From assembly GCA_021324595.1 (NCBI GenBank), contig JAJPIV010000046.1, positions 1 through 41,138 of the forward strand: a stretch of DNA of 41,138 nt, written 5' to 3'. The position numbers and the translations under genes were made by a program. Positions 8,841 to 36,383 of the stretch are shown here, piece after piece. How positions within the stretch are numbered: the stretch's first letter is position 1; each line of letters opens with the position of its first letter. Under the pieces are notes generated by a model that worked only from the letters and a program-made list of their open reading frames with translations, ran no database searches and was not told where the DNA came from. The stretch is from Actinomycetota bacterium (lineage in GTDB: Bacteria; Actinomycetota; Actinomycetes; Streptosporangiales; Streptosporangiaceae).

Positions 8841-10223
8841 TCAGATCGTAGCGGCCGGGGGCCGGGCCGCCGCGGGCAGGTCGATGCGGACGGCCGCGCC
8901 CCCGCCGGGCAGGTTCCGGGCGGAGGCGGTGCCGCCATGGGCGACCGCGATCGCCTGCACGATCGCCAGGCCCAGCCCGGCACCGCCCTCGGCCCGGCCC
9001 CGGCCGCTGTCCGGCCGGCGGAACCGCTCGAACGCGTGCGGCAGGAACTCCTGCGGGAACCCCGGCCCGGAATCAGCCACCTCGATGGTCAGGTCGCCGC
9101 CGCGCGCCCGCGCCGACAGGCGGACGGTGCTGCCCGGCGGGGCGGCCCGCAGCGCGTTGTCGACGAGGTTGTCCACGGCCTGCCGGATCTTGTCCGCGTC
9201 GACCAGCGCGACCAGCGCGGCGGGAGCGTCTACCCGGCACTCCACCCCGGCGGCGCGGGCCCGGCCCGCCGCGGCGCGGGCACTGGCCGCGAGCAGGTCC
9301 GCGATGTCGGCCGGCCCGCGCCGCACCGGCAGCCTGCCCTCGTCGGTGCGGGCCAGCAGCAGCAGGTCGTTGGTGATCCTGGTGAGCCTAGCCACCTCGG
9401 CCTCGGCGCTGGCGACCGCCCGGGCGAGCTGCTCCCGCGTGCGGCCAGGCCGGCTGGCGAGCTCGAGCTCGGCGCCCAGCACCGCGAGCGGGGTGCGCAG
9501 CTCGTGGCTGGCGTCGGCGGTGAAGCCGCGCTGCCGGGCCAGCGCGTCGTGCAGGCTGGCGAGCAGGCTGTTCATGGTCCCGGCGAGCGCGGCGAGCTCG
9601 TCCCGGGTCCGCGGCACCCGGACTCCCTCGGCCGCGTCCCGCTCCGACAGCGCCGCCACCTCCCGGCGCATCCGCTCGACCGGGGACAGCGCGGCCGCGG
9701 CCAGCCAGTACGCGCCGGCGCCGGCGAGGAGGACGAACGCGGCGCCCCCGGCCACCAGCGCGGTCGTCTCGGCGCGCACGGTCTCGTTGACCGATTCGAG
9801 TGAGACGCCGGCGACGGCGACCCATCCGGGCCTGGCCTTCAGCGGCGCCGCCACGATCCGCACCGGCTCCTCATCGAGCGTCCTGGTCACCGCGACCGGC
9901 CCGGACCGGGCGGCCGCCAGCTGCCCTGGGGTCACCAGCGGCACCCGCCCGGCCTCCTGGCCGGCGTACCTGACCACGCCCGACGGGTCGATGACCTGGA
10001 CGAGGGTCTCTCCCGACCCCGGGTTGAAGGCCGTGCCGCCCTGCCGCGTCCCGGAGGCCGACGCCAGGTACTGCCCGGCGCCGGCCAGGGTGGCCGTGAG
10101 CGTGGCATCGGTCGTCCGCAGCAGCTGGGCGCGCAGCTGGGACAGGAACAGCCACGCGCCGATCGCGAACGCCACGGCCAGGGCCGCGGTGAACACGGCG
10201 GCGACCCGGAGCTTGATCGACAC
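8841..10223 (-). CDS. Sensor histidine kinase (HAMP-HisKA-HATPase)
   Basis: This 460-residue membrane kinase has TM1 at about 7-29, an extracytoplasmic sensor of about 125 residues, TM2 at about 155-178 and a HAMP segment. The HisKA motif FTADASHELRTPLAVL has phospho-acceptor His240. The ATPase has N box DNLVDNALRAAP, G1 DSGPGF, F box FERFRRP and G2 GGAGLGLAIV. It starts at GTG 10223, three bases after the response-regulator stop, so the pair is translationally linked. The signal is unknown. Because the operator in front of the divergent electron-transfer operon lies next to its partner's promoter, the simplest inference is that it senses a condition demanding that operon. Confidence 0.95.
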   Translation of the reverse strand: MSIKLRVAAVFTAALAVAFAIGAWLFLSQLRAQLLRTTDATLTATLAGAGQYLASASGTRQGGTAFNPGSGETLVQVIDPSGVVRYAGQEAGRVPLVTPGQLAAARSGPVAVTRTLDEEPVRIVAAPLKARPGWVAVAGVSLESVNETVRAETTALVAGGAAFVLLAGAGAYWLAAAALSPVERMRREVAALSERDAAEGVRVPRTRDELAALAGTMNSLLASLHDALARQRGFTADASHELRTPLAVLGAELELASRPGRTREQLARAVASAEAEVARLTRITNDLLLLARTDEGRLPVRRGPADIADLLAASARAAAGRARAAGVECRVDAPAALVALVDADKIRQAVDNLVDNALRAAPPGSTVRLSARARGGDLTIEVADSGPGFPQEFLPHAFERFRRPDSGRGRAEGGAGLGLAIVQAIAVAHGGTASARNLPGGGAAVRIDLPAAARPPAATI

Positions 10224-10226
10224 CCG

Positions 10227-10907
10227 TCACCCCGCCGCCGGGTCCCGCAGCCGGTATCCCATGCCCCGCACGGTCTCGATGTCGTGGCGCCCGAACGGCG
10301 CGTCGATCTTGCGGCGCAGGTAGGTCACGTACTGGTCGACGACGTTCGAGGTGCCCGCGTAGGCGAAGTCCCAGACGGCCTCGAGGATCTGCGACCTGGT
10401 CAGCACGGTGCCCGGATGGCGCAGGAAGAGCTCGAGCAGGCTGAACTCCTTCGGCGACAGCTTCAGCTCAGCCTCGCCCCGCCAGGCACGCTTGGTCGCC
10501 GGGTCCAGGCGGAGGTCACCGACGGTGAGCACGGCCGGGCGGGCCCGGTCGTCGCGCCGGGCAAGCGCCCGCAGCCGGGCGCTGAGCTCCAGCAGGCTGA
10601 ACGGCTTGACCAGGTAGTCGTCGGCGCCGACGTCGAGGCCGCGCACCCGGTCCTCGACCGCGTCCCGCGCGGTGAGCATCAGCACCGGGGTCCAGTCGTC
10701 CGCGGCGCGCAGCCGGCGGCACAGCTCGACGCCGTCAAACCCCGGCAGCATGATGTCGAGGACGATCGCGGCGTACCGGTTCTCGGTGGCCAGCCACAGG
10801 CCCTCGGGGCCGTCGCCGGCGACGTCGACCGCGTGCCCCTCCTCCTGGAGGGCGCGCTTGATCAGCCCGGCCATCTTGGCTTCGTCCTCCACCACGAGCA
10901 CCCGCAT
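10227..10907 (-). CDS. OmpR-family response regulator
   Basis: The 226-residue regulator has a receiver domain (MRVLVVEDEAKMAGLIKRAL, phospho-acceptor Asp51 in IVLDIMLPGFDG, conserved Thr/Lys in MLTARD and YLVKPFS). The C-terminal winged helix (LKLSPKEFSLLELFLRHPG, NVVDQYVTYLRRKID, ETVRGMGYRLRD) is full length for OmpR/PhoB proteins. Such regulators bind tandem direct repeats about 10-11 bp apart as head-to-tail dimers. The divergent intergenic region holds exactly such an array (10956-10983), so autoregulation and control of the operon starting at 11037 are likely. The histidine kinase follows three bases downstream. Confidence 0.96.
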   Translation of the reverse strand: MRVLVVEDEAKMAGLIKRALQEEGHAVDVAGDGPEGLWLATENRYAAIVLDIMLPGFDGVELCRRLRAADDWTPVLMLTARDAVEDRVRGLDVGADDYLVKPFSLLELSARLRALARRDDRARPAVLTVGDLRLDPATKRAWRGEAELKLSPKEFSLLELFLRHPGTVLTRSQILEAVWDFAYAGTSNVVDQYVTYLRRKIDAPFGRHDIETVRGMGYRLRDPAAG

Positions 10908-10955
10908 ACCCGCAGGCTACGCACCACAGGGCCGCCCGCCGAACATGTGAGCGGC

Positions 10956-10983
10956 TCTCATGACCTTCTCATCGCCGTCTCAC
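10956..10983. promoter_or_regulatory. Three direct hexamer repeats with exact 11-bp period (OmpR-type operator)
   Basis: TCTCAT begins at 10956 and 10967, and TCTCAC at 10978, giving two exact 11-bp steps. This is the head-to-tail geometry bound by OmpR/PhoB-family regulators. The array sits 49 bases upstream of the OmpR-type regulator gene (minus) and 53 bases upstream of the electron-transfer operon (plus), so it can serve both. The repeats are seen directly; binding by the adjacent regulator is inferred. Confidence 0.6.
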
Positions 10984-11036
10984 CGGCCGGCCCGCACCCT
11001 GATGATGTCCGGACCGGAAGCGCCAGAGGAGGCAGC

Positions 11037-11435
11037 ATGGCTGATGACATGGCGCGGCGGCCGCTGCGGTCCCGCCTTCCCGGCCACGGCCGGCCCGCTG
11101 CGCCCGCAGCAGGCTCCTGGCCCGGCGGCGAGTTCTCCGGTGACGAGCCCCCCGGCGACTGGGCGCCCGCCCGGCCGGGGGCCGCTCGGCCCGGCGGCTC
11201 CCGGCCGCCGCGGCGGGCGTCCACGTGGGCCGCGGCAGCGCTGGCCGCGGGTACCGCGGCGGCCGCCGGCTACCTGGCGTACGCGCTGGCGGCCCCGCCT
11301 CCGGGCACGGGACAGGCCGGCCCGAGCGCCCGGTCCGCCGGGCAGCCAGCCGTGACGCCGAGCCCCGCCGCGCCGTCCCCCGTGGTCACCTCGGGCGGCT
11401 CGGGTGCGGGCGGCGGGGAGCGGGGGGACGACTGA
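11037..11435 (+). CDS. Single-TM protein heading the electron-transfer operon
   Basis: This 132-residue protein has a Pro/Arg/Gly-rich cytoplasmic N terminus (about 1-60), one helix (TWAAAALAAGTAAAAGYLAYAL, about 63-84) and a Pro/Ser/Gly-rich outer tail. No domain is recognised. Operons of this type often begin with a membrane-anchored FMN-binding protein carrying an S(T)GAT flavinylation site, the substrate of ApbE. Here the tail ends GGSGAGGGERGDD, with no such site or domain in this or the overlapping frames. The protein may be a shortened relic or a scaffold. The ATG follows GAGGAGGCAGC. The stop overlaps the apbE start by one base (TGATG). Confidence 0.65.
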   Translation: MADDMARRPLRSRLPGHGRPAAPAAGSWPGGEFSGDEPPGDWAPARPGAARPGGSRPPRRASTWAAAALAAGTAAAAGYLAYALAAPPPGTGQAGPSARSAGQPAVTPSPAAPSPVVTSGGSGAGGGERGDD

Positions 11436-12664
11436 TGAGCGCCGCCAACGTGACGGTCCGGCCCCGCGCGCGGGACTGGAGCCGCGTGGCGGTCGGATCG
11501 CCCGACCTGGCCGCCGCGGACCGCGATGCCCTCGGCACCACCGCGCGGATCGTGACCTGGCCAGCGGAGAACCTGCCGGGCATGCTGGCCGCCGTCGACG
11601 CCGAGCTGGCGCTGCTCGACTCGCAGGCGAGCCGCTTCCGGGAAGACTCCGAGCTGTCGGCCCTGCACGCGGCCGGGGGCGGAACGCACCGGATCAGCGA
11701 CGGCCTCGCCGAGGCCGTCGGGATCGCGCTGGCGGCGGCGGCCTGGACGGGCGGGCTGGCTGACCCGACCGTGGGCGGCGCGCTCATCGCGCTCGGCTAC
11801 GACCGGGATTTCGCGCTGATCGGCGGGGCCATGCGGGACGGCCAGGCCCTCGCCCGCGCCGGGCTCGGCGGCGCCCCTCACGGCGGCGGCGCCCCTCACG
11901 ACGGCGGCCCGCCCGGCGGCGGCGCGTGCCCCGCGGTCGCCGTCCCCGGATGGCGGTCCGTGAGGCTGGCGGGGAACCTGCTGACGCTGCCGCCAGGCGT
12001 CCGGCTGGACCTCGGGGCGACCGCCAAGGGACTCGGCGCCGACCGGTGCGCCCGGGCCGCGCACCGCGCGGCCCGGCACCGCGGCGGCGTGCTGGTCAGC
12101 CTCGGAGGCGACCTCGCGGTCGCCGGCCAGCCCCCCGCGGGCGGCTGGCCGGTGCTGGTCGCCGACGAGCACCGGCAGGTCCGCGCGGCCAGGAACCTGG
12201 CCGCGCGGATGGCGGCGGGCGCGCCAGACAGGCGCGCGCCCGGGAGCGACGGCCGGGCCGCCGGCCCCGCGGCCACCCAGCTGGTCCGCCTGGCCCGCGG
12301 CGCGCTGGCGACCTCATCGGTGACCTGCCGGAGATGGGAGCGCCATGGCCGGCAGATGCACCACCTCATCGATCCGAGGACCGGATGGCCGGCCGCCGGG
12401 CCATGGCGGACCGTGAGCGTCGCCGCGGCCACCTGCGCGCAGGCGAACGCCGCCTCTACCGCCGCGATCATCGCGGGGGAGGACGCGGTGCCATGGCTCG
12501 CCGCCCGGGGCCTGCCCGCCCGGCTGGTCGGCCACGACGGCACGGTCGCGCTGACGCCGGGCTGGCCGTCCGATGAAGGCGGGCCGGTGGCGATCCCGGC
12601 CGGCGACGGGCCGGCCGGGATCCTCCTGGGCGTCCCCGGCGGTGAAGCCGGTGAGCGGGCATGA
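11435..12664 (+). CDS. apbE: FAD:protein FMN transferase (ApbE family)
   Basis: ApbE enzymes cut FAD and attach FMN through phosphoester bonds to Thr/Ser of membrane redox proteins. This 409-residue copy has SRFREDSELSALH (about 66-78), the core LDLGATAKGLGADRCA (191-206) and the late motif HHLIDPRTGWPA followed by ANAASTAAIIAGEDAVPWL. It is longer than the usual 300-350 residues because of a Gly/His/Pro insert (about 144-165, with a tandem GGGAPH repeat) and an Ala/Arg-rich loop near residues 255-275. No signal peptide or lipobox is evident, so it may act inside the cell. Translation is coupled to both neighbours (TGATG before, ATGA after). No obvious acceptor protein is encoded in the operon. 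Confidence 0.9.
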   Translation: MSAANVTVRPRARDWSRVAVGSPDLAAADRDALGTTARIVTWPAENLPGMLAAVDAELALLDSQASRFREDSELSALHAAGGGTHRISDGLAEAVGIALAAAAWTGGLADPTVGGALIALGYDRDFALIGGAMRDGQALARAGLGGAPHGGGAPHDGGPPGGGACPAVAVPGWRSVRLAGNLLTLPPGVRLDLGATAKGLGADRCARAAHRAARHRGGVLVSLGGDLAVAGQPPAGGWPVLVADEHRQVRAARNLAARMAAGAPDRRAPGSDGRAAGPAATQLVRLARGALATSSVTCRRWERHGRQMHHLIDPRTGWPAAGPWRTVSVAAATCAQANAASTAAIIAGEDAVPWLAARGLPARLVGHDGTVALTPGWPSDEGGPVAIPAGDGPAGILLGVPGGEAGERA

Positions 12665-13350
12665 CGGGCGCGGCGCTCGCCGCGGTGGCGGGCTCGCAGG
12701 GCCTGTGGCTGGTCTCCCGGGCCAGCGGCCTGGTGCTGCTCGCCCTGTTCAGCGTCGTCGTGGTGCTCGGCGTGGCGGTCAGGACCGGCGCCAGGAGCGG
12801 CCGCCTGCCGAGGTTCGCCGTCGCCGAGCTGCACCGGAACCTGTCGCTGTTCGCGGTCGCGCTGCTCGTGCTCCACGTGGCGACCGCGCTGCTGGATCCC
12901 TACGTGTCGATCGGATGGCTCGCCTCCGTGGTGCCGTTCGCCTCGCGTTACGATCGCGCCGCGATCGGCCTCGGCGCGATCGCGGCGGACATCGGCGGCG
13001 CGGTGCTGGTCACCAGCGTGCTGCGGCGCCGGCTCGGCCTGCGCGCCTGGAAGGTGATCCACTACCTTGCCTACCTCGCCTGGCCGGCGGCCTTCCTGCA
13101 CGCGATCACGGCGGCCGGGTACGACCGGCACGTGTGGTGGGTGGCGGGAATCGAGTGGGCCGCGCTGGTCGCCGTCGCGACGGCCGTGATCGCCCGGCTG
13201 CTTGCGCGGCTGCGGCCGGAGCGGGACGGCGCGGCTCCGGCCGGCGCCGCCGGGCGGGCCGGGATGGCCAGCCGCGCCGGGCAGGCACCCGGCCCGCGGC
13301 CCCGGGCCGCCGCGGCTTCCGCGGATCACGGGGAGCGCCATGCGGGCTGA
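12661..13350 (+). CDS. Ferric-reductase-like transmembrane b-haem protein
   Basis: This 229-residue protein has about six hydrophobic helices and the bis-histidine spacing of ferric reductase/MsrQ/NOX membrane domains. His58 and His72 lie in one helix (ELHRNLSLFAVALLVLH, 13 residues between) and His134 and His147 in another (HYLAYLAWPAAFLH, 12 between). Two transmembrane haems are expected. The soluble FAD/NAD(P)H domain of true ferric reductases is absent; the C-terminal about 45 residues are Pro/Ala/Arg-rich. Electrons could instead come from the NuoF-like protein and ferredoxin encoded directly downstream. The start overlaps the apbE stop (ATGA). Family assignment good, electron acceptor unknown. 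Confidence 0.85.
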   Translation: MTGAALAAVAGSQGLWLVSRASGLVLLALFSVVVVLGVAVRTGARSGRLPRFAVAELHRNLSLFAVALLVLHVATALLDPYVSIGWLASVVPFASRYDRAAIGLGAIAADIGGAVLVTSVLRRRLGLRAWKVIHYLAYLAWPAAFLHAITAAGYDRHVWWVAGIEWAALVAVATAVIARLLARLRPERDGAAPAGAAGRAGMASRAGQAPGPRPRAAAASADHGERHAG

Positions 13351-14671
13351 GGCCGCGGCCGGCAACGCCGGCAGCCCGGCCCGCCACCGGGGTCGCCCGC
13401 GGCCGGCCACGGCGCTGCCCCGGCTGCTCCCCCCGGTCCCGGGGACCGGGCCGGTGAGCCTGGGCGATCACCTGGCCGGCTATGGCCCGCTGCCGCGCTG
13501 GCGCGCCGACGGCGCGTGGCGCGCGAGGCTGATCGCTGAGGTGGACCGCGCCCGGCTGGCCGGGCGGGGCGGGGCCGGGTTCCCCGCGGCGATCAAGCTC
13601 GCCGCGCTCGCGCGTGCCAGGGGCGCGGTCGTGGTCGCCAACGGAACCGAGGGCGAGCCAGCCAGCGCCAAGGACAAGGTGCTGATGGCCCGCTCGCCCC
13701 ACCTGGTGCTCGACGGGGTGGTCGCCGCGGCCGAGCTGACCGGAGCCCGCGAGGCCGTGGTCGTGGCTCACCCGGCGGTGACCGAGGTGGTGGCTCAGGC
13801 GGCCGGCGAGCGAAGGCGGGCACGGCTTGACCGGATCAGGATCCAGGTGCTGCCCGCCGCGGGCACGTTCGTCGCCGGCGAGGCCAGCGCGGTCGTCCGC
13901 TGGATCGAGCAGGGCGTGCCCGTGCCCGCGTGGCGCCCGGTGCGACTGGCGGAGCGCGGCCTGCGCGGACGGCCGACGCTGGTGAGCAACGTGGAGACCC
14001 TGGCCCACCTCGCGCTGATTGTCCGGTACGGGGCCGACTGGTTCGCCGGCGTGGGCACGGCCGGCGAGCCCGGCTCCATGCTGGTCACGCTGGCAGGCGC
14101 GGTCCGGCGGCCCGGCGTGTATGAGATCGCCATCGGCACGCCGGTGGCGCAGGTGCTCGCGGCGGGCGGCGGGCCCGCCGCGCCGCTCGGTGCCCTGCTG
14201 ATCGGCGGGTACTTCGGCACCTGGGTGGACGCGCGCCAGGCGGCCGGGCGGCCGTTCTCGCGGGAGGGGCTGGCCGGCCTGGGCGCCGGCGTCGGAGCCG
14301 GGCTGATCGCCGCGCTGCCGGCCGGCGCCTGCGGGCTGGAGCAGACCGCCAGGCTCGCCAGGTACCTGGCGGGCCAGTCCGCCGGCCAGTGCGGGCCGTG
14401 CGTGCTCGGCCTGGACGCGATCGCCGGGGAGCTTGCGGCGCTCGCCGCCGGCACCGGGCCGGACCTGGGCCGGCTCCGCCGCTGGATCGGCCAGGTCGGC
14501 GCCGGCCGCGGCGCCTGCAAGCACCCGGACGGGACGGTGACGATGATCGCGAGCGCGCTGGAGCTGTTCCGCGACGAGGTCGCCGAGCACATGGCCGGCT
14601 GGTGCACCGGCACTGGCGGAGCCGCCGCGCTGCTGCCGGTTCCCGGGGCCGTGCCCGGAGGGGCGGCGTGA
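13340..14671 (+). CDS. NuoF-like flavoprotein (NADH-binding/SLBB-type subunit)
   Basis: This 443-residue protein is homologous to NADH-oxidising NuoF subunits. It shows AGRGGAGFPAAIKL (FMN/NADH-binding glycine loop, about 74-87), NGTEGEPASAKDK, GTFVAGEASAVVRWIE, RGRPTLVSNVETLAHLA and an SLBB-like region (LAGAVRRPGVYEIAIG). The iron-sulfur region reads SAGQCGPC and later GACKHPDG. Only three of the four cysteines of the NuoF N3 cluster are apparent, because Ala stands in the first position. No complex I genes are near, so it is a stand-alone electron-input module, probably oxidising NAD(P)H and passing electrons to the ferredoxin and membrane haem protein. The ATG overlaps the upstream gene by 11 bases with ribosome site GGGAG; the stop overlaps the ferredoxin GTG. 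Confidence 0.87.
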   Translation: MRAEAAAGNAGSPARHRGRPRPATALPRLLPPVPGTGPVSLGDHLAGYGPLPRWRADGAWRARLIAEVDRARLAGRGGAGFPAAIKLAALARARGAVVVANGTEGEPASAKDKVLMARSPHLVLDGVVAAAELTGAREAVVVAHPAVTEVVAQAAGERRRARLDRIRIQVLPAAGTFVAGEASAVVRWIEQGVPVPAWRPVRLAERGLRGRPTLVSNVETLAHLALIVRYGADWFAGVGTAGEPGSMLVTLAGAVRRPGVYEIAIGTPVAQVLAAGGGPAAPLGALLIGGYFGTWVDARQAAGRPFSREGLAGLGAGVGAGLIAALPAGACGLEQTARLARYLAGQSAGQCGPCVLGLDAIAGELAALAAGTGPDLGRLRRWIGQVGAGRGACKHPDGTVTMIASALELFRDEVAEHMAGWCTGTGGAAALLPVPGAVPGGAA

Positions 14672-14898
14672 GGGGCCCGGCCGCCGGCCCCCGGGACCGC
14701 CCGGCCACCCGCCGGCTCCTGGTCGACATGACCGCCTGCCGCGCCCGCGGCCTGTGCGCCGAGGTGCTGCCCGAGCTCGTCGCGCTGGACGACTGGGGCT
14801 ATCCGATCATCGCCGGGCGCGTGCCGCCCGGCCTGGAGGGCCAGGCGCGGGAGGCCGTCCGCCTCTGCCCGCGCCTGGCCCTGCGGCTGTCGCGCTAG
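14668..14898 (+). CDS. Single-cluster ferredoxin
   Basis: The 76-residue protein carries C24-x5-C30 (CRARGLC) and C67-Pro (RLCPRLALRL), the three-cysteine pattern of actinobacterial [3Fe-4S]-type (or site-differentiated [4Fe-4S]) ferredoxins. AEVLPELVALDDWGYPII is also characteristic. It begins at GTG 14668, overlapping the NuoF-like stop (GTGA) behind GGAGGGG, so it is coupled and is the probable soluble electron shuttle of the operon. It ends only seven bases before the convergent cytochrome b stop, leaving no room for a normal terminator. Too short and GTG-started, it is easily missed. Confidence 0.88.
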   Translation: MRGPAAGPRDRPATRRLLVDMTACRARGLCAEVLPELVALDDWGYPIIAGRVPPGLEGQAREAVRLCPRLALRLSR

Positions 14899-14905
14899 CC
14901 GCGCT

Positions 14906-16840
14906 CTAGGACCGGTGGCGCGCCTCCTCCGGCCGCGGCGCGGCAAGCTCGGCCGCCTGGGCCGACCCGGCCGGCGAGCGGTACCAGGAGCGCCAGATGA
15001 GCCGGTAGACCGGGATCGCCCTGGGGATGTCGCGTAGCCCGGGGATGAACGGGACAAGCAGCAGCAGCAGCGTGGCGATGCCGGTCAGGTACACGGCCCA
15101 GACGTCCACGCTGGCCGAGCTGGCGAACGGGCTGACGTGGTACCACATCGTGTACAGCCACAGCCACGGCTGGCCCGGGTAGCTGCCGGTCTCGTTCATC
15201 ACGCCCCACTGGTCGCCGGTGAGGTGCATCTTCGACGCCTGCGAGATGTAGTAGCCGCCGTCGGCGATGAACAGCAGCGGCTTGGTGAAGTCGGTCCCGT
15301 AGAACTGGCGCTGGGCGAGCAGGTCGGCGTCGAGCGACCCGCTGCGGGCCATCGCCAGCTCGTAGGACATCATCACCGGCACCGGGCCCGCGGCCGGCAG
15401 CCGCAGGTCCCCGTTGTTGAACGGGACCTTCTTCGCGCCGGGGGCCGTCGCGTTGGCGTACGCGGTCGCCCAGGCCCGCTGCCGCGCGGGCGGGGCGGCG
15501 TCGAAGGTGCGCAGCGCCGCCGCCAGGGCCGGGGTGGTCCTGGCGAGCGAGGCGAGCGGCCTCAGGACGAAGTCCTGGGCGGCGTTGACCGGCTGGGCGA
15601 TCCCGGCCAGCTTCTGCCAGCTCACCGGGCCCACTTGCTGCAGCGCGCCGGTCCCGTTGTTGTACGGCGGTCCGTAGTTGGCCGCCAGCGCCGTGCCGTT
15701 GAGCTCGGTGGCCGCGGTGTAGACGAAGTCCACTGGCGCGACCCGGCCCCAGGTCTGCAGCGTGAGCGGCGGGACGTCCGGGGAGGACAGCACGCCGGCC
15801 ATGACCAGCACGAGGGCGCCGACGATCACCGTCGCGACCGTGCCCTCCTTGATGATGTCGTAGCGCCGGCTCGGCCCCCGCCACGGCCCCGCGTCGGCGG
15901 CCCTGGCCGCCTGCCGGGCGCGGCGCCCGCGCAGCGGCCGCCGCGGCAGCGGGTGGCTGACGCCGCGGACGCGGACCAGCAGTATGTGCGCGCCGACGAT
16001 CGCGACCAGCACCAGCGGCATCAGCACGATGTGCCACATGAACATCTGGCCGAAGTTCATGGCGTTCCAGATCGAGCCGATGCCGACGGCGTTGAAGGCG
16101 TCCTTGCCGTTGGTGGCGATCCACTGGGAGTCGAAGTTCTGCTGGGACAGGTAGCCGGTGAACGCGGTCACGATCGAGGCCATGAACGCGACCACGCCGG
16201 TGATCCAGGTGAGCGCCCGGCGGCCGCGCCAGGCGGCCATCCAGAACTTGCCCCACAGGTGGATGACCATGAAGGCCATGAACAGCTCCACCGACCACAG
16301 GTGGACGCTGTTGAAGAAGTGGCCGACCGCGTTGGTGTGCCACCAGTCGGAGCCGCCGAGCGCCAGGCCGAAGCCCGAGACGATCGCGATGCCGAGCGCC
16401 ACCAGCGTCGCGACGCCGAAGACGTAGACCCACGAGGCCACATAGGCAGGCTGCCGGTCGGGCACCAGCTTCTTCGGCGGCAGCGTCCGCGCGGCCCAGG
16501 TCCGCACCCGGGCGGTCCACATCCGCTCATCGCCCGCCTCCGGCTCAGCCGCCCGGACCGCGAGCTGGGCGGCGCCGGCCGCCTCGCCGGCGGCGCCCTG
16601 GCCGGGCGGGCCGTCGCCTGCCGGGCCCGGGCCGCCCGGGTCCGGGCCCGCCGGCGGCAGCGCGCCGCCCTTGGCGTGCGGGAAGGGGATGAGCAGCGCT
16701 GCGCCGAAGATGACGATCATCACCGCGATGACGATCAGGTTGGCGACCGAGATGTCGATGAACGACCAGTGCAGGTAGGTGCCCGGCTGGTTCAGGTCGA
16801 TCGCAAGCGGTCCCCGGTGAAGGAGGACGGAGGGGTCCAT
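14906..16840 (-). CDS. Stand-alone cytochrome b (QcrB N-domain-like) with large outer domain
   Basis: A 644-residue protein. An N-terminal TM helix (about 30-52) and a Gly/Pro linker are followed by a cytochrome b core with haem ligands H180/H194 (helix B, 13 residues between) and H270/H285 (helix D, 14 between). Next come another helix (TVATVIVGALVLVMAGV), a soluble domain of about 220 residues and a last helix (YLTGIATLLLLLVPFIPG). The quinol Qo motif PEWY and the rest of the QcrB C-terminal domain were not found, and no Rieske or cytochrome c gene is adjacent. The ATG follows AGGAGAGCAG. A perfect DevR-type palindrome lies about 113 bases upstream, so expression under hypoxia is likely. 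It probably moves electrons between quinone and an unknown partner. Confidence 0.85.
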   Translation of the reverse strand: MDPSVLLHRGPLAIDLNQPGTYLHWSFIDISVANLIVIAVMIVIFGAALLIPFPHAKGGALPPAGPDPGGPGPAGDGPPGQGAAGEAAGAAQLAVRAAEPEAGDERMWTARVRTWAARTLPPKKLVPDRQPAYVASWVYVFGVATLVALGIAIVSGFGLALGGSDWWHTNAVGHFFNSVHLWSVELFMAFMVIHLWGKFWMAAWRGRRALTWITGVVAFMASIVTAFTGYLSQQNFDSQWIATNGKDAFNAVGIGSIWNAMNFGQMFMWHIVLMPLVLVAIVGAHILLVRVRGVSHPLPRRPLRGRRARQAARAADAGPWRGPSRRYDIIKEGTVATVIVGALVLVMAGVLSSPDVPPLTLQTWGRVAPVDFVYTAATELNGTALAANYGPPYNNGTGALQQVGPVSWQKLAGIAQPVNAAQDFVLRPLASLARTTPALAAALRTFDAAPPARQRAWATAYANATAPGAKKVPFNNGDLRLPAAGPVPVMMSYELAMARSGSLDADLLAQRQFYGTDFTKPLLFIADGGYYISQASKMHLTGDQWGVMNETGSYPGQPWLWLYTMWYHVSPFASSASVDVWAVYLTGIATLLLLLVPFIPGLRDIPRAIPVYRLIWRSWYRSPAGSAQAAELAAPRPEEARHRS

Positions 16841-16930
16841 CTGCTCTCCTCAGAAATGGGCCGGGCATCGCCGCCCGGCGAGTTCACCACGTGCGTCCTC
16901 ACTCTCGCCCGGCAGCGTACCCGGCAGGCA

Positions 16931-16966
16931 GGGATGTCGGTCACGCGGGCGCGGGACCTAGGTCCC
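16931..16966 (-). promoter_or_regulatory. Tandem DevR/DosR-type boxes upstream of cytochrome b
   Basis: GGGACCTAGGTCCC at 16953-16966 is a perfect 14-bp palindrome, the best DevR-type site in the window. A weaker relative, GGGATGTCGGTCAC, begins exactly 22 bp away at 16931. Tandem sites two helical turns apart are typical of DosR-controlled promoters. The pair lies about 90-125 bases upstream of the cytochrome b start. Motifs are seen; binding is inferred. Confidence 0.7.
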
Positions 16967-17017
16967 CGGGGCGCCGGGGGGCCGGGGCGATCGGCGCGAG
17001 GCCTTGGAGAGGATGCG

Positions 17018-17051
17018 GGATGCCCGCCCCGGCATTCCGGGGCGGGCATCC
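17018..17051 (-). terminator. Strong hairpin terminator after the 197-residue membrane gene
   Basis: GGATGCCCGCCCCGG (17018-17032) and its exact complement (17037-17051) form a perfect 15-bp stem with loop CATT. It starts 15 bases after the minus-strand stop at 17066 and precedes the cytochrome b promoter region. The two genes therefore probably have separate transcripts. No T-tract. Confidence 0.75.
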
Positions 17052-17065
17052 GCGCGACCCCCGGG

Positions 17066-17659
17066 TCAGGCGACCGGGGCCCGGGCCGGGCCGACCGCCG
17101 CCGGGAACACCTCGGCGTCCGCGGGCACCCGGCGGGAGTGCCACAGGCCGAGGAAGGACAGGATCAGCATCAGGCCGGCGCCGACGAACGAGACGATCGC
17201 GCCGATCCAGATGATCTGCCCCATCTGCCAGAAGCCGTACGCCTCGAGCAGCATGCCGCGCAGCGTGGTGCCGCGGAACACCGTCTGGACCTGGTTCGCC
17301 AGCGCGATGTTCTTGGGCTGCGCCAGCGACTTGGCCGACAGCTGCGCGTAGGTCAGCCCGCCGCCGATCTCCTTGAGGTGGACGGCGATGAAGTGGTCGG
17401 CGTAGGTCTCCGCCTGGGCGCCGTTGGTCATGAGCTGCCCGGCGTACTGCCTCATCGCCGCCGCGTCGGCACGCGGCAGCGCCTTGATCTCGGGGCTGTT
17501 CGCGGCCGGGAACGTGATCTTCTGCTCCTGCAGCTGCGTCGTGACCTGGTTGCTGACGAACACGTGCCCCCAGGTCAGCAGCGCGCCGGCGATCAGCAGG
17601 ACCGCGGCCACGGCGAAGCCCGCCATCACCATCAGCAGGTCAAAGGTCCTCCTGCGCAT
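17066..17659 (-). CDS. Two-TM membrane protein with extracytoplasmic helical domain
   Basis: This 197-residue protein has TM1 at about 8-29 (LLMVMAGFAVAAVLLIAGAL), an outer domain of about 115 residues rich in Gln/Ala (VTTQLQEQKITFP, DAAAMRQYAGQLMTNGAQAE) and TM2 at about 148-173, then a short tail. I recognise no characterised family. Its position beside the cytochrome b, and DevR-type boxes upstream of both, suggest a companion of that redox protein. The outer domain has His32, His89 and His94 but no CxxCH haem motif. ATG 17659 is supported by AGGAGG with 7-base spacing. It is divergent from devS. Confidence 0.7.
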   Translation of the reverse strand: MRRRTFDLLMVMAGFAVAAVLLIAGALLTWGHVFVSNQVTTQLQEQKITFPAANSPEIKALPRADAAAMRQYAGQLMTNGAQAETYADHFIAVHLKEIGGGLTYAQLSAKSLAQPKNIALANQVQTVFRGTTLRGMLLEAYGFWQMGQIIWIGAIVSFVGAGLMLILSFLGLWHSRRVPADAEVFPAAVGPARAPVA

Positions 17660-17676: not shown

Positions 17677-19614
<1,938 letters not shown>

Positions 19615-19671: not shown

Positions 19672-20427
19672 TCAGCGTGCGGCCGGCCCGTGGCCGCGCC
19701 CGGCGCCCTGGCCGTGCCCGGCCCCGTGGGCGTGGCCACGCTCATCAGCTCCGGCCGCCGGGCCATGCTCCTCGAAGACCCGCGCCGCGTAGGCGGCCGC
19801 CTGGGTGCGCCGCTCCATGCCCAGCTTGGCGAAGAGCGCGGAGACATAATTCTTGACGGTCTTCTCCGCCAGGAACAGGCGCTCGCCGATCTGCCGGTTG
19901 GTCAGCCCCTCGCCGATCAGCTCCAGGATCTTCCGCTCCTGGCCGGTCAGCGCCGCGAGCGGGTCGGAGCGCCGCGACTGGTCACGCATCCGGGCCATCA
20001 CCCTGCTGGCGGCCTCCGGGTCGAGCAGCGACCGGCCGGAGGCGACGGTGCGGACCGCCCCGACCAGGTCGGTGCCCCGGATCTGCTTGAGCACGTACCC
20101 CGAGGCCCCTGCCATGATCGCGTCGAACAGCGCGTCGTCGTCGCCGAACGAGGTCAGCATCAGGCACGCGACCTCCGGCATCCGCGACCTGATGTCCCGG
20201 CAGACGCTGACCCCGTCGCCGTCGGGCAGCCGCACGTCGAGCACGGCGACGTCGGGCCGCAGCGCCGGGATCCGGGCGAGCGCCGACGCGGCGGTCCCGG
20301 CCTCGCCGACCACGGTGATGTCGGGCTCGGCCTCCAGCAGGTCCCGCACGCCGCGCCGGACGATCTCGTGATCGTCGAGGAGGAACACCTTGATGCTCTT
20401 GTCGGTCCCGCCGGGATTCTCGTCCAT
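19672..20427 (-). CDS. devR: Dormancy-type NarL/LuxR response regulator DevR (DosR)
   Basis: This 251-residue regulator is close to mycobacterial DosR along its length. The receiver domain has [20 protein letters not shown] and phospho-acceptor Asp64 in [13 protein letters not shown]; the switch region has LMLTSF and [11 protein letters not shown]; the HTH has [20 protein letters not shown] and [14 protein letters not shown]. It should bind the GGGACC-N2-GGTCCC palindromes found nearby. Unlike DosR it carries a C-terminal tail of about 30 residues rich in Gly and His ([17 protein letters not shown]), which might bind metal. The ATG at 20427 has only a distant GGAAGGG. The hairpin at 20449-20467 lies in its leader. 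Confidence 0.95.
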
Positions 20428-20547: not shown

Positions 20548-21567
20548 TCAGAGCAGCACCTCGTCGACCGGCCGCCGGACGCTCACCGCCGCCTGCCCTG
20601 TGGTGCCGAACCTCACCACCATCTGCGGGTAGGCGCCCCCGGTCAGGCTCTCCCTGATGAAGGCCCGCAGGGAGGGCACCTCAAGCGGCTGGCTGTGCAG
20701 CGCCGCGCTGACCCCGCTGCTGCTGGCGAGCAGCAGCACCCGCTGCAGCGCCTGGCCAGCGCGGACCCAGTCCGCGGGCTGGTCGGCTCCGGTGGTCAGG
20801 ACCGTCACCGCCCCGGCGGACCGCGGGCGCACGTCGGTGCCGGACGGCGGCAGCCCCCAGCCGTGACCGTGGGCGAAGTCCCGGCTCGGGAACGCCGGCT
20901 CGGTCCGCTCGGGGCGCGCCGGGTACGCGGTCGCCGGCACGCCGTCCCGCCGCTGGCTGCCCGGAGGCGGGGCCCACTTCGCCTGCTCGCGCACCCGGGC
21001 GGGGTCCAGGCGCAGCGCGTGATCGGCCGCCTCCACCACGGCTGACAGCGCGCCGCGCTGGTGATCGTCGCTCATGATCCGCAAGGTGGCGCCCTCGCGG
21101 GCAGCCTCCTCCCTGAGCGTCGCGAGCAGGCCGGCGGGCAGCGGCTCGTCGTCGAAGCCGCCCCGGTGGGTCCGGCGGCGCGGAATCTCCGCGAACAGGC
21201 GCCGCTCGTAGTCGGCGGGCGGCGTCTGCCCCTCCCAGGTGATCCTCGCGATCAGGTTCGGAAGGTCCGGGTCGGGAAGCAGGCGCACGCGGGGAACCAG
21301 GCCGAGGTAGCGGAGCGCGACCCGGGCGGTGAAGACCGCGGCGCCGCAGCTGATGACCATCTCCCGGCCGTCGGGATCCGCGACCGGCATCCGCCGCTCG
21401 GTGTCGGCGTGCACGCCGATCCCGTCACTGTCCTTGCTGAACCACCAGGGCTGGGTGTTGCTGACCGACGGTGCGTGCACGGCCGCCTCCACCACGAAGC
21501 GCGTGATCTCCTCGGGGGTGCTCGCCTGCACCGGGAGCTCACCGGACGGAGCCCAGAACATGTTCAT
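20548..21567 (-). CDS. Acg-like nitroreductase-family protein 1
   Basis: This 339-residue protein of the Acg subgroup (mycobacterial Rv2032, Rv3127 and Rv3131 are DosR-induced relatives) carries the FMN-site start VVEAAVHAPSVSNTQPWWF (about 25-43). It also has GREMVISCGAAVFTARVALRYLG, RRRTHRGGFDDEPLPAGLL and, late, DWVRAGQALQRVLLLASSSGVSAALHSQPLE. These proteins have two fused nitroreductase folds with a lid over FMN and no proven enzyme activity; flavin storage or stress roles have been proposed. The ATG follows GAGAGGG. A DevR-type palindrome lies 116 bases upstream. devR follows downstream on the same strand. Confidence 0.9.
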   Translation of the reverse strand: MNMFWAPSGELPVQASTPEEITRFVVEAAVHAPSVSNTQPWWFSKDSDGIGVHADTERRMPVADPDGREMVISCGAAVFTARVALRYLGLVPRVRLLPDPDLPNLIARITWEGQTPPADYERRLFAEIPRRRTHRGGFDDEPLPAGLLATLREEAAREGATLRIMSDDHQRGALSAVVEAADHALRLDPARVREQAKWAPPPGSQRRDGVPATAYPARPERTEPAFPSRDFAHGHGWGLPPSGTDVRPRSAGAVTVLTTGADQPADWVRAGQALQRVLLLASSSGVSAALHSQPLEVPSLRAFIRESLTGGAYPQMVVRFGTTGQAAVSVRRPVDEVLL

Positions 21568-21682
21568 AGCCCTCTCCCCACGCGCCGCCCGCACGCGGGC
21601 CGCCTGCGGTCGCGGTGACCTGCGGCACCAGTCAACCCCCGAACCCCGCCCAGGTCGAGTACCCGAACGCCGGTTCCGGGGC

Positions 21683-21696
21683 GGGACCTTGGTCGC
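21683..21696 (-). promoter_or_regulatory. DevR/DosR-type box upstream of Acg-like gene 1
   Basis: GGGACCTTGGTCGC matches 11 of 12 fixed positions of GGGACC-N2-GGTCCC. It is embedded in a longer symmetric context (GGGGC before, GCCCC after). It lies 116 bases upstream of the gene starting at 21567 and inside the 216-bp gap behind the second Acg-like gene, so gene 1 has its own promoter. Confidence 0.65.
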
Positions 21697-21783
21697 CCCG
21701 CCGCCCGGCCGCGCCGTCCCGCCGCGCCGTCCCGCCGCGCCGGCACCGGTCGCGTCACGCCGGCGCCTGCCATGCCGCACCGG

Positions 21784-22773
21784 TCACGCGGCACGGCCGG
21801 GCTCGGTGAGCTCGTCGGCCGGGCGGCGGGGCGTGGCCAGCGTGACCCGGGCCACGCCGAGCTGCAGGAGCACCTGCGGCGGCCCGGGCAGGCCGATCCT
21901 GGACTGGATCAGCGCCCTGACCCGCCGGCTGTCCAGTGCCTGTGAGTGCAGGTTCGCGAAGACCCAGCGGGAGGCGGCGTGCAGGAGCAGCCGGTACAGG
22001 GCCTGCCCCGCCCTGATCCAGTCGGCCCTGGTGTCGGCCGGCGTGATCAGCGCGGCCGTCACCACGCCTGGCACGGCGCGGGCCGGCAGCGCGAAGCCAT
22101 CCAGGGCGCGCCGGGACGCCGGCCCGCCGGCTCCCGCCTGAGGCGGCAGGGCCGCGGCCGGGATGCCGTCCCGGGCCGTGCTTCCTGGCAGCCTCACCCA
22201 CTGGCGCAGGTCGGCGCGCACGCGGTGATCGTCCCGGGCGTGCCGCGCGACGTCGGCGACGATCGCGGCCAGCCGGCCGTAACGGGCCGGCCCGTCAATC
22301 AGCGCCAGCGCCGCGTGCTCTGCGATGGCGTCGTGCTGCAGGGCGACGATCAGCCCCGGCGGCAGCGGCTCGGCGGTGAACGCGTCCCGGTGCGTGTGCC
22401 GGTGCGGCAGGGCGCTGAGCATCTGCTGCTCCACCTCGGTGAGCGGGGACGGCGCCCCGAGCGCCACCCGCGCGATCAGGCCGGGCCGCTCCGGGCTGGG
22501 CAGGAGCTGGACCACGGGGGAGTAGCCGAGCGAGCGGATCGCAAGGCGCAGGCCGAACAGGGCGGCACCGCAGCTCATCAGCATGTCCCGGCCGGCCAGG
22601 TCGGCGCGGAGCCTGCGGCTGTAGTCGGCGTGCAGCTCGATCGAGTAGGTGCCGACCCGGAACCGCCATGGCTGGGTGTTGAGCACCGACGGCGCGCGCG
22701 CGGCCATCGCCAGCATCTCGTACACCCGGTCGGCGGGGATCGGCACCCGGTGCCGGACGGCCTGCTCGGTCAT
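21784..22773 (-). CDS. Acg-like nitroreductase-family protein 2
   Basis: The 329-residue paralogue of the neighbouring gene has MAARAPSVLNTQPWRFRV (about 22-39), GRDMLMSCGAALFGLRLAIRS, LPHRHTHRDAFTAEPLPPG and DWIRAGQALYRLLLHAASRW. The same FMN-binding double nitroreductase fold is expected. The two copies align over their whole length but differ widely, indicating an old duplication. The ATG is supported by CGGAGG with 5-base spacing. A DevR-type palindrome lies 80 bases upstream. It is divergent from the secreted protein gene at 23089. Confidence 0.9.
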   Translation of the reverse strand: MTEQAVRHRVPIPADRVYEMLAMAARAPSVLNTQPWRFRVGTYSIELHADYSRRLRADLAGRDMLMSCGAALFGLRLAIRSLGYSPVVQLLPSPERPGLIARVALGAPSPLTEVEQQMLSALPHRHTHRDAFTAEPLPPGLIVALQHDAIAEHAALALIDGPARYGRLAAIVADVARHARDDHRVRADLRQWVRLPGSTARDGIPAAALPPQAGAGGPASRRALDGFALPARAVPGVVTAALITPADTRADWIRAGQALYRLLLHAASRWVFANLHSQALDSRRVRALIQSRIGLPGPPQVLLQLGVARVTLATPRRPADELTEPGRAA

Positions 22774-23088
22774 GGCAGCCTCCGTTCCTCGGTGAGAGCA
22801 GGCTGGCCGGTCCGGGCCGCCCGCTGCCAGGGGCGTTGGGGACGGTGATCCGGGACCTTGGTACCTGGCCGCGCATGCCGCTCGGATCGCCACCGGCCGG
22901 TGAGCGATTCCCCTGGCGCAAGCATCCCGGCGAAATCCCAGGAACCTCACAGGCAATGCCGGTCTCCCGCAAATCGCCCCGCCGTAGCCTTGCCGTGCCC
23001 TCGTTGGCCGGGCGGCGGCGCGCCAGCGGACGTCCCCGCCGGGCTGGCAGCGGGCGCCATCCGCCAACCAAGAACACGAGGTCATCCG
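22774..23088. other. 315-bp divergent intergenic region
   Basis: The gap separates Acg-like gene 2 (minus) from the secreted protein gene (plus). It contains the DevR-type box at 22853-22866, a weaker flanking GGGGACGGTGATCC directly beside it, and no gene-like frame. The plus-strand promoter for the secreted protein must also lie here; I cannot place it. Confidence 0.5.
22853..22866 (-). promoter_or_regulatory. DevR/DosR-type box upstream of Acg-like gene 2
   Basis: GGGACCTTGGTACC matches 11 of 12 fixed positions of GGGACC-N2-GGTCCC, 80 bases upstream of the start at 22773. It shares the core GGGACCTTGGT with the box in front of Acg-like gene 1, supporting common control of the two paralogues. 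Confidence 0.65.
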
Positions 23089-24180
23089 ATGCTGAGACGT
23101 TCCATCCGCGCGCTCGTCACGGCCACCCTGGCCGCGGGCGTGGCCGCCGGGGCCGGAGCCGGCTCTGCCGCCGCGGCCCCGGCCGGGAGCTGGTCCGGGC
23201 CGGGCCATCCGGTCCCGGGCGCGTTCACCGATGAGTCCCCCGCCCTGAGCGCGGTCACCTTCCCGGGCCCGATCGGCCAGGCGGTCCTGGTCGCCTGGCG
23301 GGGCCGGGGCGCGGCCGGGCCGGTCCGGTACCGGTTCCGGTCACCGTCCTTCCGCACAGGCGCGTGGTCGGCGGTCGGCACCGTGCCGGGCGCGTCCACG
23401 AGCTCGGCCCCGGCGGTCGCCTCCTACCGTGACCCGTCCGGGCGCCTTGCGGTGCTTGCCGTCTGGACCGGGCGGGCCGACCACCACATCTGGTACTCCC
23501 AGGGCCGCGCCCTCGTGACCGGCGCGATCGCGTGGGCCAGGCCGGCGGTCCTGCCCGCCTCGGTGCGGTACACGAGCACGATCGACGGGCCCGCCGTGCT
23601 CTTCCCCGCCCACAGCGACGCGGTGATCGTGACCTGGCGCGGCCCGGCCAGCCACGTCAGGTACGTGGTCGGCCGCCCGAGAGGGCGCGGGTTCGTCTGG
23701 TCGGCCTCCCGGGCGATCCCCGGCAGCCCGGCGCCCGGCACGCGCTGCACCCTGTTCCCGTGCACCAGCGCCACCCCCGCCATCACCGAGGAGTCCACGG
23801 GAACGGCGCGGGGCGTGGTCTACGTGTTCTGGAAGCAGCTCGGCGGCACCGGGGTGTACTACGCCGCGGCGCGCGACCCGCTGACGGCCTCCCGCGGGAG
23901 GCTGGCCTGGTCCGCGCCCGCCCGGGTGGCCGGCGCGGCGACCTCGGCCGGCCCGGCGGCGTCGGCGCTCGGGGTCAACGGATTCGGGCCGGTGCTGCTC
24001 GTCTACAAGGCCCCCGCCACGGTGGCGGTCCGGTACCAGACCCTGGCCGGCGGCAGCTGGAGCACCGTGGCACGGGTCCCCGGAGCGCGCACCGGCGTGG
24101 CCCCGGCCCTGCTGCGCGGCCTGCTGGCCACCACCACCCCGACCACGATCGGCAACATCATCCTGCGCGTCTACCGCTGA
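23089..24180 (+). CDS. Secreted, propeller-like repeat protein
   Basis: This 363-residue protein has an Ala-rich signal peptide (MLRRSIRALVTATLAAGVAA, predicted cleavage near residue 30 after AAA). The mature part contains recurring segments of about 45-60 residues with a pattern such as SAPAVASYRDPSGRLAVLAV, TIDGPAVLFPAHSDAVIVTW, ATPAITEESTGTARGVVYVF and VLLVYKAP. This is what a beta-propeller of the sialidase/BNR-like type looks like, but I see no catalytic site. One Cys pair (RCTLFPC) may form a disulfide. The ATG follows GAGGT with 6-base spacing. A 15-bp terminator stem follows the stop by six bases. Function unknown. Confidence 0.8.
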   Translation: MLRRSIRALVTATLAAGVAAGAGAGSAAAAPAGSWSGPGHPVPGAFTDESPALSAVTFPGPIGQAVLVAWRGRGAAGPVRYRFRSPSFRTGAWSAVGTVPGASTSSAPAVASYRDPSGRLAVLAVWTGRADHHIWYSQGRALVTGAIAWARPAVLPASVRYTSTIDGPAVLFPAHSDAVIVTWRGPASHVRYVVGRPRGRGFVWSASRAIPGSPAPGTRCTLFPCTSATPAITEESTGTARGVVYVFWKQLGGTGVYYAAARDPLTASRGRLAWSAPARVAGAATSAGPAASALGVNGFGPVLLVYKAPATVAVRYQTLAGGSWSTVARVPGARTGVAPALLRGLLATTTPTTIGNIILRVYR

Positions 24181-36193: not shown

Positions 36194-36233
36194 ATGTGTG
36201 CCGGGACTACATGCGTGCCGGGACTATAGGCCC
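36194..36233. promoter_or_regulatory. 17-bp tandem repeat containing a mycobacterial-form DevR box
   Basis: ATGTGTGCCGGGACTAC (36194-36210) and ATGCGTGCCGGGACTAT (36211-36227) match at 15 of 17 positions. The second runs into GGGACTATAGGCCC (36220-36233), 13 of 14 positions of the mycobacterial DosR consensus GGGACTWWAGTCCC. On the minus strand TATAGT and TGTAGT could also serve as -10 elements. The element lies 69-108 bases upstream of the Tad operon and about 150-190 upstream of the SARP gene. Confidence 0.5.
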
Positions 36234-36383
36234 GGCACCGTGAGCGGCCGGTGATCCGGGCGTGAACCGGCCCGGGATGCCGGGCGCGCCGGGCGACGCC
36301 CGCCGCGGTCGGGCCACCCCGCCCGCGCCGCGTCACTACGATGGTGCCCGCGTCCCACCCGATCCGAGTGCGGGGAGATGCCG

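Follow-up and report, generated by a model that had tools for sequence, protein, structure and literature searches.

As the core of complex III, cytochrome b is a textbook protein that is hardly ever treated apart from the Rieske protein. The described systems with which the gene considered here is compared are the cytochromes b of the bc1 and bcc complexes (MT-CYB, QcrB), cytochrome b6 with subunit IV of the b6f complex, and the DevR/DosR (OsdR) regulon. The gene, P0001, lies on a 41,138-nucleotide stretch of DNA from a soil actinobacterium of the Streptosporangiaceae (contig JAJPIV010000046.1, assembly GCA_021324595.1; the whole stretch is referred to as the window), where an earlier note had proposed that a stand-alone cytochrome b and a two-transmembrane (TM) partner, P0002, form a dormancy respiratory module. 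The present analysis suggests that P0001 is probably a self-contained, Rieske-free, quinone-linked transmembrane b-cytochrome, which in Actinomycetota would be under the control of DevR. It belongs to a coherent, Rieske-free cytochrome b family that has apparently not been described before: a literature search by title and abstract, which covers subscription papers and preprints poorly and is weak evidence of absence, showed no description of it among the matches listed. The gene and its parts are arranged as follows:

14906–16840, minus strand: stand-alone di-haem cytochrome b P0001, 644 amino acids, a three-module fusion (open reading frame (ORF), Pfam, alignment, model)
16667–16840, minus strand: module 1, residues 1–58, with one TM segment (encoded by its own small ORF in at least eight other loci)
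15947–16522, minus strand: module 2, residues 107–298, b6-like four-helix di-haem core with four histidines and four glycines
14993–15865, minus strand: module 3, residues 326–616, helix E, outer domain and helix F (a separate ORF of ~320 amino acids in split forms)
15110–15787, minus strand: outer domain, residues ~352–577, within the E–F loop (alignment, predicted structure)
15155–15211, minus strand: motif QWGVMNETGSYPGQPWLWL, residues 544–562, nearly invariant, directly before helix F

The core is that of a b-cytochrome. The four haem-ligand histidines pointed out in the earlier note are present (H180/H194 with spacing X13, H270/H285 with spacing X14) and near-invariant: together with the glycines G142, G156, G215 and G229, they are conserved in 94–95 of the 95 rows covering them in a 122-row family alignment, which is the pattern of two histidine pairs and packing glycines of a four-helix di-haem b core. 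The spacing was discarded as a diagnostic, because the genome's own type of QcrB shares it. Pfam recognizes solely N-terminal cytochrome b families, all within residues 138–298 (PF13631 with 50.3 bits and PF00033 with 30.7 bits, both above cut-off), and no NCBIfam model reaches its cut-off: actinobacterial QcrB (NF050120) scores 30 bits against a cut-off of 500, and the similarity to the ExtP b-type cytochrome (NF040969) is weak, its 48.5 bits lying far under the required 290. The best single-sequence matches in the Protein Data Bank (PDB) are cytochromes b6. The main hydrophobic segments in the alignment are residues 22–58, 131–165, 175–193, 208–231, 261–295, 328–357 and 575–603.

The protein shares the di-haem helices A–D with the cytochromes b of bc1 and bcc, as well as helices E and F in its predicted structure. 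It differs from them in the absence of PEWY, in having carriers without a Rieske match, in an outer domain of ~220 residues in the ef loop and in an extra N-terminal TM segment. A search for P[ED][WF]Y in P0001 found no PEWY-type Qo-site motif, as the earlier note had stated, and P[ED][WF][YF] occurs in one row among the 122 of the family. From its position, QWGVMNETGSYPGQPWLWL may take the place of PEWY; its E550 occurs in 97 of 97 rows and, in an alignment of 26 rows including 12 of a divergent subfamily, is conserved to at least 90% in each of the two subfamilies. With b6f, the likeness lies in the b6-like core and in split genes in several genomes, which recall the division into b6 and subunit IV; module 3, with two TM segments and a large outer domain, is the difference. 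A cysteine at the haem c position is a feature of cytochrome b6; P0001 contains no cysteine and hence none at this position, although cysteine is frequent at position 226 among relatives (62 of 95 rows). Neither an Fe–S nor a haem-c motif occurs in P0001, and none of the 122 rows contains CXXCH.

An AlphaFold2 (AF2) model built from the 122-row alignment has a pLDDT of 85.9 and a pTM of 0.86; an earlier model from 14 rows was poor (pLDDT 50.5). VIA superposes the newer model on mycobacterial QcrB (9gy6_B; Z 21.0, 293 residues, 3.7 Å, model 115–615 on chain 16–376) and on human cytochrome b (5xte_J; Z 19.7, 282 residues, 3.1 Å, model 114–614 on chain 3–317), and the best Foldseek hit in the PDB has an E-value of 9.5e-7. 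By profile (hhalign to actinobacterial QcrB, 97.4%), residues 136–346 alone are recognized, and most comparison rows of the model contain no structural match past helix F. The model is therefore read as a cytochrome b in which helices A–F are kept and the later ones are missing, the loop between E and F, which holds the Qo lid and PEWY in bc1, having grown to ~220 residues. The earlier note had described this domain as a replacement of the normal C-terminal domain of QcrB; the domain and its size hold, but the replacement is not a simple one, since helices E and F fit cytochrome b and the domain lies between them. In other genomes, the protein occurs in split forms comprising a one-TM ORF (~residues 12–58), a b core of ~200 amino acids and a remainder of ~320 amino acids. 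At no fewer than eight loci (L027, L169, L170, L171, L174, L178, L180 and L182), the three parts are separate ORFs, and the gene of the window is therefore a three-part fusion.

The genome of the window has its own bcc genes: contig C24 carries a QcrC-type ORF with two CXXCH motifs, the Rieske gene qcrA and a QcrB with PDFY. Identification of P0001 as an ordinary QcrB, the first of two findings named in the earlier note as speaking against its proposal, was accordingly rejected; P0001 and the genome's QcrB align with 26% identity over residues 175–289 only. As to the neighbours said to be lacking, the Rieske part of that claim can be widened, because the window's contig contains no Rieske match and all five of the genome lie on other contigs; the cytochrome c part holds for the scanned neighbours of P0001, among which there is none, the whole window not having been searched for cytochrome c.

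How far the family can do without a Rieske protein was read from its distribution. A scan of named genomes returned 451 relatives in 84,980 species; the best 80 of the 451 come from Actinomycetes and Acidimicrobiaceae metagenome-assembled genomes (MAGs), Trebonia kvetii, Acidiferrimicrobium sp. IK, an ‘unidentified bacterium’ (L084) and 14 small-genome loci. By title, the latter are six Ca. Saccharibacteria, one Ca. Levyibacteriota and seven ‘bacterium’; these Saccharibacteria-type genomes span 0.5–1.5 Mb. Twenty of the 80 carrier genomes were tested, the 14 small ones and six actinobacterial ones. Rieske proteins were found in 0 of 14 and 6 of 6, respectively, and a second, ordinary cytochrome b likewise in 0 of 14 and 6 of 6; in all 14 small genomes, the P0001 family provides the sole PF13631 protein. 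In each of the six actinobacterial carriers, one Rieske gene lies within ~1 kb of the ordinary cytochrome b, and the 20 kb to either side of the P0001-family gene contain none.

P0001 could also be an additional cytochrome b, borrowing the genome's Rieske protein and cytochrome cc to build an alternative bcc complex in hypoxia. The qcrC, qcrA and qcrB genes in the window's genome would provide for this, as would the Rieske protein and second cytochrome b of all six tested actinobacterial carriers, but none of the 14 small genomes with the gene has a Rieske match. In bc1, moreover, the Rieske head docks on the outer surface of cytochrome b, which in P0001 lacks PEWY and is rebuilt by the ~220-residue domain. 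Borrowing is thus highly improbable, and P0001 is still best read as Rieske-free and self-contained.

Saccharibacteria-type genomes are largely devoid of respiratory chains. Among the 14 small genomes, 13 have COX1 and none has a bd oxidase; for the actinobacterial carriers, the numbers are six of six and three of six. Three small-genome oxidase operons, read by eye, would encode a Cyo-type quinol oxidase, judging from gene order and the absence of CuA cysteines; the one at L233 includes an NDH-2-like gene. The copy at L105 is no binning slip, because it sits on a 504-kb contig. A tree computed quickly by maximum likelihood from 85 full-length rows (midpoint root, no bootstrap) places the 14 small-genome rows in one clade (SH-aLRT 97) nested inside the actinobacterial rows; six of the 14 have an odd amino-acid composition, which can draw rows together in a tree. 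Acquisition of the gene by one transfer is the simplest reading of these relationships. A bo3 oxidase and an NADH dehydrogenase have been reported in soil Saccharibacteria (Starr et al., PMC6031116; Nicolas et al., PMC8407418), for which Starr et al. suggest a scavenged quinone; the available portions of both papers do not mention a P0001-type cytochrome b.

Such an oxidase could serve as the electron acceptor if P0001 were a superoxide oxidase-like quinone reductase, passing electrons from superoxide, or another donor at the outer face, to the quinone pool, a role that presumably resembles that of E. coli CybB. The haems would suffice for this, without any further cofactor, and COX1 is present in 13 of the 14 small genomes (Cyo-like in the three operons read). 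However, P0001 does not match the cytochrome b561 family of CybB (PF01292) at E-values up to 1, the divergent relative L266 staying below threshold with 20.6 bits against 30.1, and induction through DevR by low oxygen would occur when superoxide is least expected. A superoxide oxidase-like role is therefore quite unlikely.

Another class, that of G493, was sampled with 294 genomes, 28 of which have the family, 15 in the close form and 13 solely in the divergent one; in a phylum-wide sample of 396 genomes, searched with the single protein P0001, 11 matched at E 1e-20, that of the window included. The divergent form constitutes a second cytochrome subfamily in the class of G493 (L265–L275 and L277), with ~27% identity to P0001 and the same outer motif; the 12 sequences of it that were read, 459–515 amino acids long, retain the haem ligands, the packing glycines, the outer domain and the E550 motif.

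Given these features, P0001 may work in the following manner. Two predicted haems b would connect a Qi-like quinone site in the inner leaflet (R290, K331/E332) with a pocket on the outside of the membrane over which the outer domain forms a roof, and electrons would pass between the (mena)quinone pool and an outside donor or acceptor, without Q-cycle bifurcation. A Q cycle would be impossible because it needs a Rieske centre; with two haems across the membrane and no Rieske protein, electron exchange between quinone inside and a partner outside is the simplest role. R290 is kept in 95 of 95 rows, E332 in 96 of 96 and K331 in all rows of a smaller 14-row set; these positions presumably correspond to inner quinone-site residues of b6 and bc1. 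H539 is the best-kept histidine of the outer domain (81 of 98 rows). In this general form, the mechanism seems likely. In Actinomycetota, P0001 would be switched on by DevR/DosR, therefore in hypoxia or under NO/CO stress, and would add an electron outlet (or inlet) beside the normal bcc–aa3 chain; Saccharibacteria-type genomes would use their P0001-type cytochrome beside a bo3-type quinol oxidase. P0002 would be a co-regulated accessory or assembly partner. The elements on which the regulatory part is based are:

16953–16966, unstranded: DevR-type palindrome GGGACCTAGGTCCC, exact, ~113 bp before the P0001 start codon
17066–17659, minus strand: P0002, 197-residue two-TM protein, upstream of P0001
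17787–17800, unstranded: weaker DevR-type box GTGACCGAGGTCCC in the interval from P0002 to the kinase gene (strict pattern with two mismatches)
17851–19614, plus strand: DevS/DosT-like GAF-GAF histidine kinase (2vzw, E 1.3e-53)
19672–20427, minus strand: DevR/DosR-like response regulator (3c3w DevR, E 4.6e-86)

Both P0001 and P0002 are preceded by good ribosome sites. The earlier note had assigned DevR-type boxes to both genes; that of P0001 is exact, whereas GTGACCGAGGTCCC is weaker and could serve either P0002 or the divergent devS-like kinase gene. The strict box GGGACYWWRGTCCC, with up to two mismatches, occurs seven times in the window against 1.14 expected, a number reached by none of 100 shuffles; a loose pattern is not enriched there (five found, 5.8 expected). 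In 78 loci including the window, a region reaching from 300 bp upstream of the start to 30 bp downstream of it was scanned: 18 have a box with at most one mismatch and 35 one with at most two, the figures for random stretches of the same loci being 0.9% and 2.9%. At the latter threshold and with the window excluded, boxes are found in 34 of the 63 loci that do not come from small genomes (Actinomycetota except L084), compared to 3 of 60 downstream stretches and 2% of shuffles, and in none of the 14 small-genome loci; about half of the actinobacterial loci thus have no such box. P0002 homologues have one in 17 of 35 cases (background 9%). DevR/DosR-type control of P0001 in Actinomycetota is supported by this distribution and argues for hypoxia. 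In the window the box is accompanied by a DevR/DevS pair; for the other loci, the comparison covers the box only.

As in described DevR/DosR (OsdR) regulons, a DevS-like kinase, a DevR-like regulator, boxes and Acg-type nitroreductases are found beside P0001. The nitroreductases are two tandem FMN enzymes at 20548–23208, and DevR-like boxes at 21683–21696 and 22852–22865 would precede shorter, likelier starts of their genes; a further DevR-like box, GGGACTATAGGCCC at 36220–36233, lies before a BTAD/AAA regulator gene (36378–38369). A related motif and regulon have been described for S. coelicolor OsdR (PMC5069765); the main text of that paper, as available, does not contain the word ‘cytochrome’.

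That a redox two-component system adjoins the gene here, and that the outer domain shows no recognizable cofactor site, would also suit a non-catalytic or sensory cytochrome b, acting in redox sensing or assembly. Yet actinobacterial and small-genome relatives alike preserve the two haem sites and the site-like motif, genomes of ~1 Mb have retained the gene, and of the flanks examined at 81 loci only 8 contain a DevS-type kinase and 10 a DevR-type regulator. A non-catalytic or sensory role is hence improbable, and catalytic quinone-linked electron transfer is the reading followed below.

P0002 belongs to no known family, as the earlier note had it: no Pfam or NCBIfam model matches (best Pfam E-value 0.15, below cut-off), and the PDB contains no relative (best E-value 0.12 by profile, 1.2 by sequence). 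Its hydrophobic segments, residues 4–37 and 146–175, enclose a loop of ~110 residues, which from the positive ends is predicted to lie outside. A relationship to the outer domain of P0001 was dismissed (hhalign 0.4%), as was identity with an ATPase zeta inhibitor, for which E is merely 0.12–0.15 and the loop is on the predicted outer side. Failure of the two genes to co-occur was the second adverse finding named in the earlier note, and the counts turned out favourably. In 99 related genomes (G000 left out; thresholds of E 1e-45 for P0001 and 1e-33 for P0002 or better, seven weaker P0002 matches of 6e-15 to 7e-4 being scored as absent), P0001 is present in 24, P0002 in 28 and both in 20; P0002 thus accompanies 20 of 24 P0001 carriers and 8 of the 75 others (Fisher 5e-11, kinship ignored). 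In the class of G493, it occurs in 18 of 28 genomes with the cytochrome and 21 of 266 without (1.5e-11, kinship ignored), or in 13 of 23 versus 21 of 266 when five genomes picked for the cytochrome are removed (4e-8). An aerobic lifestyle could link the two occurrences. All six actinobacterial and eight of the 14 small-genome carriers tested have P0002.

Within the flanks examined, P0002 accompanies the cytochrome at 10 of the 80 named loci, as it does in the window; it directly precedes it on the same strand in L068, L069, L071, L074, L075 and L082, with a gap of ~0.8 kb in L086, and is close to it also in L265 and L266. At L265 (7021–10714), a Crp/FNR-type regulator gene is divergent from P0002, which is followed by a PH–PNPOx gene and then the cytochrome b, possibly an FNR-controlled version of the module. 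A functional link between P0001 and P0002 is likely, albeit a non-obligate one. Of the proposed dormancy respiratory module, the Rieske-free cytochrome, the DevR-type control and the co-occurrence of the two genes have thus held up; a joint complex of the two proteins, electron transfer by the pair, induction in hypoxia and the word ‘respiratory’ are conjectural.

An obligatory operon partner was not found. The cytochrome has no constant neighbour in 81 loci, where the commonest clustered neighbour family reaches 16 of 81, and no widely shared one in 23 further loci. Neighbour family 6, considered as a b-cytochrome partner, is a mixture (of three members scanned, two are VTT and one is a weak Frag1). 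Genes recurring nearby in some loci only are of NuoF/ApbE/ferric-reductase, EgtB-like, hydrogenase and PNPOx-like types, several named by eye. The first of these is represented in the window at 8841–14898: an OmpR-type regulator and kinase gene pair is divergent from genes for ApbE, a ferric-reductase-like TM protein, a NuoF-like SLBB/Nuo51 protein and the product of a small ORF, which is ferredoxin-like by eye but has no Pfam match. Some members of this set recur beside the cytochrome in L076, L118, L120, L124, L127, L139 and L140. NiFe hydrogenase large-subunit-like genes (by eye) lie near the cytochrome b in L069, L071, L088 and L121, directly after it in L121; peptidase A4-like (acid protease) genes do so in the small genomes L079, L105, L130 and L134 (by similarity; Pfam on L130 only).

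The habitats of the carriers may bear on the outer substrate. P0001 might be a menaquinol-driven ferric reductase and serve as a hypoxic sink: in habitats that are acid, rich in iron and poor in oxygen, it would send electrons outward to soluble Fe(III). By their titles, carriers include Acidiferrimicrobium sp. IK, Acidimicrobiaceae and MAGs from bog and palsa, many other isolate codes resemble those of Chinese mine sites, and control by DevR suits an alternative sink; but neither an iron site nor a multihaem partner was found, and the putative habitat link comes from titles and isolate codes. Ferric iron is thus a rather unlikely substrate and superoxide, as noted, an unlikelier one; the remainder falls to other or unassigned substrates.

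Several observations weigh against a self-contained, Rieske-free electron carrier and its partner. A qcrB and a Rieske gene are present in every actinobacterial carrier tested, where a role with QcrA/QcrC is possible; MAGs are incomplete, which makes any single absence weak evidence, and the searches of the small genomes covered Rieske, PF13631, COX1, bd oxidase and P0002. K331/E332 are not conserved in the divergent subfamily. Global Foldseek scores are low (TM 0.29/0.46 for the best row), because the inserted outer domain breaks or spans the alignment. The outer domain has no recognizable cofactor site, and therefore no given substrate is indicated. Finally, P0002 is mostly not adjacent to P0001 and occurs without it in 8 of 28 positive relatives and in 21 of 39 in the class-of-G493 set.

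If P0001 functions as proposed, a widely spread, Rieske-free di-haem family with a rebuilt quinol-oxidation side and dormancy-type regulation would newly link the quinone pool and the outside in hypoxia. Within the cytochrome b superfamily, it may even represent a third architecture, for which the case is tentative and falls slightly short of balanced: a small TM segment, a b core and a helix E/outer domain/helix F unit, fused or as three subunits, with a co-occurring two-TM partner, would exchange electrons between quinone and the outside in hypoxic Actinomycetota and in the Saccharibacteria that acquired it. The latter would thereby have their sole cytochrome b in a second respiratory complex that accompanies the bo3 oxidase; with one PF13631 cytochrome b per Saccharibacteria-type genome, the role of respiration in these organisms would become directly testable.

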